From Marinilabiliaceae bacterium ANBcel2 (GTDB lineage: Bacteria; Bacteroidota; Bacteroidia; Bacteroidales; Marinilabiliaceae): a DNA stretch of 64,000 bases. Of this stretch, positions 16,680 to 18,358 are shown piece by piece. Under the pieces are notes generated by a model that searched no databases, had not been told where the DNA came from, and saw nothing but the letters and a program-made list of their open reading frames with translations. The translations under genes were made by a program, and so were the position numbers. Location: positions 1 to 64,000 of the forward strand of contig JARULA010000004.1 of NCBI GenBank assembly GCA_029688995.1, read 5' to 3'. Each line of letters begins with the position of its first letter. The stretch's first letter is position 1.

Positions 16680-18358
16680 TTAATCAAGATCGAGATTAAA
16701 TTGCTCTTTTAGCTTTTTTAATGCAGGATTTTGTTTAATCATATCATTATATTTATCAGCTGAGGTATATATTTTTTCACTTTTATTGCTCCTTTCCTCT
16801 ACTGTGATAGTCAATGATATATTATCATTTGTCAAGCTATTTTTCAAATAATGTGATATAGACTCTCTCTCTTTTAACAACTCCTCTTTTTGAAATCTGT
16901 TTTGCACAGAAATAACAATTTTGTTATCATCTGAAATATTAGGTGTTATGTTATCTAAAATACTGAAAATCCTGGGACGAGAAGATTTTAATTTATTTGC
17001 ATAGCTATTCCAAACCGATATTAAACTACTCTTTGTTACAGGTTCATTTCTATTACTATGATTATTATCTACCTGTAAGTGATCATGATCAGAACTTTCG
17101 TTATCTTTTTTATTACCGGCACTCTTTTTTTGAATAAGCTTTTTTATAGAAACAGAGGTGATCTCCTCTTTCTCTTTTTTGGGGCTATCCAGAGTATTAA
17201 CACTGTTGCTTGACTTGCTTTTTTTCTCCTTTTTACGCTTAGCGTTTAATTCAGCTGCTTTTTTTTTTCGATAAAAATTCGAGATAAGCTAATAAGTGCA
17301 AACTCTACATGTAAACGCTTATTTCTTGCTGTTTTATAATTAAGTTCACACTGAGTTGTTATTTTTAGAGCTTCATAGAGAAACTCTTCATCGCAATGTT
17401 TTGACTGTTCAACATATCTATTTCTAATTGATTCACCAACTTCAAGCAGATTGGCAGTTTGTGAATCACGACACATTAACAGATCGCGAAAATGGCAACT
17501 CATGCCATATATAAAATGACTTCCGTCGAAGCCGTTATTTAAAATCTCATTATAAATTAGAAGCGCACCGGTTGTATCTTCTTTCAAAAACAGTTCGGTA
17601 AGCTTAAAATAGTAATCATAATCGAGAACATTTAAATTCTCAATCACCTGTTGATAGGTTATTGTTTTACCTGAAAAAGCAACTATCTGGTCAAAAATAG
17701 AGAGTGCATCACGCATAGCACCGTCAGCTTTTGAAGCAATTACAGTTAAAGCCTCTTCTTCTGCTTCTACCCCTTCTTTACCGGCAACATACTTTAAATA
17801 TTCAAGAGCAACATCTGTTGATATGCGGTTAAAATCAAATGTTTGACACCTTGATAGAATAGTTGGCAATATTTTATGTTTTTCGGTTGTTGCCAAAATG
17901 AAGATTGCATGTGCCGGTGGCTCTTCAAGGGTTTTAAGAAATGCATTAAAAGCTGAAGGTGATAACATGTGAACCTCGTCAATAATATAGACACTGTATT
18001 TACCCATTGAGGGAGGAACTCTTACCTGATCGATAAGTTGTCGTATATCATCTACCGAATTATTACTGGCAGCATCTAACTCATGGATGTTATATGAACG
18101 ATTTTCATTAAATGATCTGCATGATTCACACTCATTACAAGCTTCATAATCTTCGGAAATATTATTACAGTTTATTGTTTTAGCAAAAATTCTCGCACAT
18201 GTTGTTTTACCTACACCACGCGGACCGCAAAACAGATATGCATGAGCAAGTTGTCTGTTTTTTATCGCATTCTTTAAGGTAGATGTTATATTCTCCTGAC
18301 CTTCTACTGAATCGAAAGTTCCCGGACGATATTTTCTTGCTGAAACAATGTATTCCAT
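16680..18358 (-). CDS. dnaX: DNA polymerase III tau (dnaX, -1 frameshift product)
   Basis: Full-length tau needs a -1 shift. The upstream frame ends at 17246, but the -1 frame is open without a stop from the A10 run at 17259-17268 to 16680, giving a product of about 559 aa. The extension contains a Lys/Ser-rich linker, then a conserved segment (SLISVWNSYANKLKSSRPRI) and a C-terminal end (NPALKKLKEQFNLDLD) typical of Bacteroidota DnaX tails. The shift site reads GAA AAA AAA AAG in frame, containing the A AAA AAG heptamer used by Escherichia coli dnaX. Tau would tether the polymerase and helicase. A homopolymer sequencing error is the main alternative. Confidence 0.7.
17246..18358 (-). CDS. dnaX: DNA polymerase III gamma (clamp-loader ATPase), zero-frame product of dnaX
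   Basis: In the zero frame, translation ends 4 codons after the slippery A10 run, giving 370 aa. This has the clamp-loader ATPase: Walker A GPRGVGKTTCARIF, the zinc module C-x8-C-x2-C-x2-C in the NCNN...ESC segment, Walker B IIDEVHMLS, sensor 1 LATTEKHKI and the SRCQTFDF motif, then domain III. This corresponds to the gamma form made by frameshifting in some bacteria. The same reading without a shift would leave the cell without tau unless slippage occurs. It precedes icd and follows the nptA-like gene after a gap of 74 bases. Confidence 0.85.
   Translation of the reverse strand: MEYIVSARKYRPGTFDSVEGQENITSTLKNAIKNRQLAHAYLFCGPRGVGKTTCARIFAKTINCNNISEDYEACNECESCRSFNENRSYNIHELDAASNNSVDDIRQLIDQVRVPPSMGKYSVYIIDEVHMLSPSAFNAFLKTLEEPPAHAIFILATTEKHKILPTILSRCQTFDFNRISTDVALEYLKYVAGKEGVEAEEEALTVIASKADGAMRDALSIFDQIVAFSGKTITYQQVIENLNVLDYDYYFKLTELFLKEDTTGALLIYNEILNNGFDGSHFIYGMSCHFRDLLMCRDSQTANLLEVGESIRNRYVEQSKHCDEEFLYEALKITTQCELNYKTARNKRLHVEFALISLSRIFIEKKKQLN

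Follow-up and report, generated by a model that had tools for sequence, protein, structure and literature searches.

The dnaX locus

The window analysed here covers the opening 64 kb of contig C30 in a 2.98 Mb genome of 35 contigs (G000) and contains a dnaX gene whose reading frame is broken at a run of ten A residues (A10; Table 1). Read across this site the gene is GAA AAA AAA AAG CAG CTG AAT TAA; the zero frame closes after three codons, the +1 frame closes one codon past the run and the -1 frame stays open. Translation without slippage would give gamma, and a -1 transition at the run is predicted to give a tau of 367 + 192 = 559 aa. The initial annotation had described this arrangement, with a zero frame of 370 codons ending just past A10, an in-frame A AAA AAG heptamer within the run and a -1 frame open for about 190 codons, and the sequence bears out each of these points, the exact count from the slip site to the end of the -1 frame being 192 codons.

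Table 1. Positions of the dnaX features in the window and of a second A10-containing gene of the same genome
Feature	Position	Strand	Description and basis
dnaX zero-frame ORF, 370 aa	17246..18358 (start 18358)	-	gamma-like: clamp-loader ATPase, lid, domain III; TIGR02397, Pfam
A10 run GAA AAA AAA AAG, proposed slip site	17259..17268	-	sequence; A10/A11 common in family
Zero-frame heptamer A_AAA_AAG	17264-17258	-	in-frame; sequence
Zero-frame stop TAA, ends gamma	17246..17248	-	three codons past AAG
-1 frame, 192 codons of tau-specific C-terminal part + TAA	16680..17258 (TAA 16682-16680)	-	tail profile; predicted fold
coaBC (putative; L366, L393)	G000:C31:64215-65438	-	A10 in CoaC-CoaB linker

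The N-terminal part of the gene scores 449.5 bits against TIGR02397, above the cut-off and as expected of a full clamp-loader subunit, and Pfam finds PF13177, PF22608 and PF12169 (ATPase, lid and domain III) in the zero-frame product, with the slip site at the end of domain III. No second dnaX match above the cut-off was found in the genome. The three remaining A or T runs of at least nine bases in the window (8487, 12755 and 34425) lie outside the surrounding listed ORFs of at least 60 aa.

A profile built from the -1 tails of the window's family (threshold E<1e-3) matched 118 of 132 tails from genes with a continuous tau frame and, of the other out-of-frame tails, 50 of 60; none of the 384 wrong-frame translations was matched. 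By sequence similarity, then, the -1 tail is the C-terminal part of tau, which agrees with the earlier description of it as a conserved DnaX C-terminal end. AlphaFold predicted a confident fold, with pLDDT block means of 82-98, for approximately residues 71-190 of the tail. Compared by sequence with solved structures the tail gave no match up to E 10; a Foldseek search of the predicted fold against the PDB returned DnaA domain I and DciA as its best hits, none of them at E<=0.001, and Pfam run on the tail alone gave a single match, below its cut-off. Tau domain V has a KH-like fold, with which the Foldseek hits agree weakly, and we do not rely on them.

Conservation of the break in the family

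A first search gave some match in 61 of 61 genomes, a few of them having weak matches only, and the search of the family matched 65 of 71 genomes at E<=1e-60. All usable family loci were retained, 64 in total, of which 63 are distinct and one (L179) is identical to L092; a gene split in two (G072) was omitted. Tau lies in the -1 frame in 57 of the 64, two are continuous, four are cut by contig ends and one (L020) has the zero-frame stop together with a second break in the tail. Both continuous loci belong to genus g10 and both have A10, so that the search among close relatives found the same A run and frame break and no continuous gene that had lost its homopolymer. Among the 56 distinct family loci with tau in -1, 47 have A10 (46) or A11 (1), and in 29 of these 47 the zero-frame stop directly follows the run codon. 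Identity to the N-terminal part of the window dnaX ranges from 60 to 84% across the family, and the break is therefore an old inheritance.

Phase of tau across the Bacteroidota

For a wider survey, 80 of 593 relatives from a DnaX search were kept as named loci, all with names that read as Bacteroidota; altogether 276 loci were entered and removal of five exact duplicates left 271. A run was counted when it comprised at least nine A's, lay no more than 50 codons from where the N-terminal match ends and was followed by a single clear long frame. By these rules 198 of the 271 distinct loci qualify, with lengths of A9-A13 common; in the same 198 genes only three such A runs occur in 326,937 bases before or after the site. 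The base following the run is G in 109 loci, C in 49 and T in 40. Tau continues in the zero frame in 91 of the run-bearing loci, in the -1 frame in 99 (hereafter rev-1) and in the +1 frame in eight (rev+1), a ratio that is no estimate of frequency because rows outside the family were fetched in part and with a preference for broken loci. Lacking a run of nine are nine further rev-1 loci, all of genus g3, and 41 loci with tau in the zero frame.

The frames that do not encode tau tend to close immediately after the run. Where tau is in the zero frame behind a run of at least nine (n=91), the -1 frame is closed within five codons in 88 loci and the +1 frame in 71, as against 13 and 4 of the 40 tau-zero-frame loci whose longest run is seven or less; one A8 locus falls outside both groups. 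Background closure within tails is about 0.36 for -1 and about 0.29 for +1. A stop follows within five codons in the zero frame of 96, and in the third frame of 85, of the 99 run-bearing rev-1 loci, and in all eight rev+1 loci both other frames are closed within that distance. Because the loci are related, these counts cannot be treated as independent.

On a FastTree phylogeny of 248 loci, built from up to 358 N-terminal residues, the run-bearing loci require at least 36 changes of phase, of which 25 rest on single tips, some of them possibly homopolymer errors; 11 changes are left once these 25 tips are dropped. The 23 loci outside the tree comprise nine cut by contig ends, seven that are ambiguous, four without a long frame, one without data and two scored as rev+1 without a run. 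Changes of phase are seen at close range as well. In genus g235, which belongs to family f25, tau is in +1 in G366 and G367 (both A11) and in -1 in G368 and G370 (A11) and in G369 (A10). In genus g45, five genomes (four A11, one A10) read tau in the zero frame, and G060, which has A12, one A more than two neighbours with A11 and identical flanks, has it in +1; in G060 a single extra A may have flipped the phase, or the run length may be in error. Family f25 is represented in the tree only by G060 and G354; the rest were added afterwards, and 23 of its 27 genomes were matched and all 23 were read. Tau in +1 after A10-A12 was recorded in L383 (G367), L385 (G366), L110, L155, L193, L211, L228, L234, L235 and L185 (G060), the last of these being the call that may reflect a run-length error. 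Runs of at least 11 are found in 5 of 8 rev+1 loci vs 8 of 99 rev-1 loci (Fisher p 0.0006, uncorrected for kinship and with the possible error in G060 among the five). The dnaX break in the window is no one-off: it represents one phase of a device, based on an A run, that is common in the Bacteroidota.

We also noted that the zero frame of L210 and L229, the dnaX genes of G247 and G269, is shut 39-44 codons past the run and no other long frame follows, possibly because of a second break or an assembly error.

A probable dual-competent slip site

By its sequence the window site is suited to slippage by the polymerase and by the ribosome alike. We favor, as the probable explanation, a dual-competent site that gives both gamma and tau, mainly through slippage of RNA polymerase and with a share contributed by the ribosome. 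From one start, two clamp-loader subunits would be made. The DNA read as written would yield gamma; copying of A10 into mRNA with one extra A (or any length of 2 modulo 3) would place ribosomes in the -1 frame, and ribosomes could alternatively reach this frame by slipping -1 on the embedded A_AAA_AAG, with the 192-codon tail and tau as the outcome in either case. The initial annotation likewise proposed that gamma is read in the zero frame and that tau arises from a -1 shift or polymerase slippage, the reverse of the E. coli roles, and the break and A run shared by relatives support it. More widely, the arrangement would be a recurring Bacteroidota device, an A run followed by one open and two closed frames, in which the in-phase frame drifts among loci, a drift to be expected if the frames are interchangeable through slippage, and in which lineages would be free to lose one of the two mechanisms.

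Our reasoning for giving polymerase slippage the larger part is that: (i) other taxa have a comparable run with tau continuing behind it in the zero frame; (ii) run length is conserved beyond what the heptamer comprises; (iii) the usual closure of both non-tau frames within five codons is as expected of RNA polymerase slippage; and (iv) a -1 ribosomal shift provides no explanation for those relatives that have tau in +1, whose runs also tend to be longer. Three further observations favor a ribosomal share, namely enrichment of the heptamer, the sites of genus g3 and a tRNA-Lys(UUU) that is the sole tRNA-Lys among the tRNAs typed, and these are considered below.

An extension of this scheme is that A9-A13 runs at domain boundaries are phase-agnostic switches in the Bacteroidota, used in dnaX and in coaBC. 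The polymerase would slip so freely that the written frame hardly matters, and free slippage of this kind would let dnaX move repeatedly among tau in 0, -1 and +1; in coaBC the run would provide a free CoaC half besides full CoaBC. We regard this broader proposal as tentative, its chances falling a little short of even.

A rival explanation is that the shift is purely ribosomal, a -1 event at A_AAA_AAG as in E. coli in which the two frames have exchanged roles and the length of the A run is incidental. We think this unlikely for the window, although several observations speak for it. The window has the exact heptamer in frame, and A_AAA_AAG is found in 66 of 99 rev-1 loci vs 13 of 91 loci with tau in the zero frame and 1 of 8 rev+1 loci, an enrichment that comes largely from one family and is to be read against the frequency with which codons of these tails begin with G (0.30); it persists when counted by family (where the base completes AAN, it is G in 15.5 of 19 vs 10.3 of 23). 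In genus g3 the heptamer is kept in 9 of 9 genomes in which the long run is absent, the runs being A6G or A7G only: the sites (L032, L035, L038, L160 and L162-L166) read CAA AGA AAA AAG (eight) or GAA AAA AAG (one) and then a stop. Their third frame closes after 13, 1, 13, 4, 1, 11, 1, 4 and 4 codons, less tightly than the 1-5 in the 47 A10/A11 family loci. Loss of the long run with the heptamer kept suggests a switch to ribosomal frameshifting in g3. Finally, the typed tRNAs include no tRNA-Lys other than Lys(UUU) in the two genomes scanned. In G000 there are two Lys(UUU) and zero Lys(CUU) among the 41 of 46 matches that were typed (150 of 240 candidates scored), the others being two at contig ends that have no gene call and three unscanned matches of 82-85 bases; in G031 only Lys(UUU) was seen among 49 typed of 53 (150 candidates scored).

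Against an exclusively ribosomal mechanism stand the relatives with tau in +1 and the closed third frame of most rev-1 loci, together with 7 of the 47 long-run rev-1 family loci that have A10 or A11 and no heptamer (L024, L027, L031, L036, L037, L126 and L158). Stimulatory elements were likewise not seen at the window site: inspection by eye of the 25 bases upstream of the run revealed no Shine-Dalgarno-like GGAG or AGGA, and no stem-loop is predicted downstream (z +1.03, with 174 of 200 shuffles folding at least as well). Across the family the picture is less uniform. The mean z of the 50-60 bases that follow the site was -0.93 and -0.94 for long-run rev-1 loci of the family (45 of 47 folded), compared with -0.41 to -0.10 further downstream, and the corresponding means past the site were 0.01 and -0.17 for the nine g3 loci, -0.19 and -0.30 for 45 of the 52 other rev-1 loci and -0.40 and -0.51 for 45 of the 91 tau-zero-frame loci. 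The weak signal in the family could reflect a stimulator in some of its members. Inspection of the g3 sites by eye for a shared hairpin at the usual spacing gave nothing convincing. As a signal across loci was unclear, a downstream stimulatory stem-loop was dropped as a candidate component of the site.

Rejected explanations: decay and sequencing error

Two further explanations are both very unlikely given that the break and the A run are common to relatives; we rejected them on conservation. According to the first, the gene is a decaying pseudogene, or the organism makes only gamma and carries the tail as a relic. The poor conservation of the linker of the tail would fit decay, but the tail is conserved towards its C-terminal end across families and there is the absence of a second dnaX match, as noted above. 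Furthermore, codon position 3 is the most variable in all seven tail pairs compared, the contrast between positions being clear in two close pairs (7, 3, 24 and 8, 5, 26) and weak in five distant ones. We therefore give decay or a relic tail very little probability.

The least probable explanation is an error of sequencing or assembly in a gene that is really one frame, to which homopolymers are prone and of which G060 may be an instance, for the same break, with stops right after the run, recurs in 57 of the 64 family loci and its carriers include assemblies of few contigs (G036, one; G071, one; G007, five).

Relation to known dnaX systems

There is precedent for genes of this type. Antonov et al. 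2013 (PMC3711429) described 17 two-ORF dnaX genes from 12 genera in which a -1 transition is required for tau, and presented the type as new; all 17 are -1, nine have ten A's and three Chlorobi are named among them. For the genes with ten A's they inferred transcriptional realignment, and they regarded variation of direction among orthologues as a sign of that mechanism (PMC3711429). The window dnaX resembles this set, as it appears in the sections of the paper available to us, in that the zero frame terminates shortly behind a poly-A run where domain III ends, the C-terminal part of tau is in the -1 frame and the transition is conserved in orthologues. It thus joins a described kind, and the reversal of roles is, as an idea, already in print. 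What differs from the Antonov set is that a whole family is covered here and that there are +1 relatives and lineages with the heptamer only. Those same sections contain no mention of a +1 direction for dnaX, and in the open-licence literature, searched mostly by listing, we found no publication on a +1 dnaX phase, on repeated flips across the phylum or on the coaBC case.

The comparison with the two classical systems, drawn from the available portions of the papers cited, is mixed. In Thermus thermophilus, dnaX is subject to transcriptional slippage on A9 (PMC1088944, PMC5009743); the window gene is similar in having a run of at least nine A's with both non-tau frames closed soon after, and unlike it in that the zero frame encodes tau in Thermus and gamma in the window. 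In E. coli a -1 ribosomal frameshift takes place at A_AAA_AAG (PMC5009743, PMC3711429). The window shares the in-frame heptamer, and its genome showed only tRNA-Lys(UUU) among the tRNAs typed, but the roles of the frames are reversed, the zero frame giving the short product, the run has ten A's and neither stimulatory element was seen. A 2016 review by Atkins associates ribosomal shifting in E. coli with a sole tRNA-Lys, and slippage in Thermus with two, and refers to stimulatory signals resembling those of E. coli, unpublished at that point, in one two-ORF gene from a Chlorobium (PMC5009743).

Genes of this kind are likely to be called by a gene finder as a short dnaX with its tail lost. Yet in E. 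coli it is tau that couples polymerase to helicase. The family also offers natural experiments, in the form of members with a long run and no heptamer and members with the heptamer and no long run, and other families add tau in +1; as these separate polymerase slippage from ribosomal slippage, the circumstances in which one mechanism gives way to the other become directly testable. If the drift of phase and the coaBC case both hold, transcriptional slippage would be a general route to two proteins per gene in a very large phylum.

coaBC and other A10 runs

Ten exact A10 runs were found in the genome, five of them in stop-to-stop frames of at least 199 codons, dnaX included. Since four other such ORFs contain A10, one of them (L368) before its first ATG, A10 alone is no proof of programmed slippage. 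Of the remaining three, the gene that we take to be coaBC, named by eye from its two halves, has the -1 frame closed after three codons and the +1 frame after 0 past the run. Our sample of this gene consists of 56 loci, that of G000 and 55 from relatives (L394-L448), 56 of 61 genomes having been matched. A run of at least nine with the ligase half in frame is present in 16 of the 56, and within five codons of the run the -1 frame is closed in 15 of these, the +1 frame in 14 and both in 13; with shorter runs (n=37) the corresponding numbers are 6, 19 and 1. The ligase half is out of frame in three loci, twice in -1 (A13 and A11) and once in +1 where there is no run. The coaBC run thus looks like the same slippage design as that of dnaX, and we offer it as a lead, not a finding, because a conserved stretch after the run may favor some stops.

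Two other frames with A10 were noted. L369 (1111-1707, + strand) is a 199-codon frame in which the -1 and +1 stops lie five and two codons past the run, and L367 (2-1630, + strand) is a helicase-like open frame, presumably Cas3-like as judged by eye, that contains the run.
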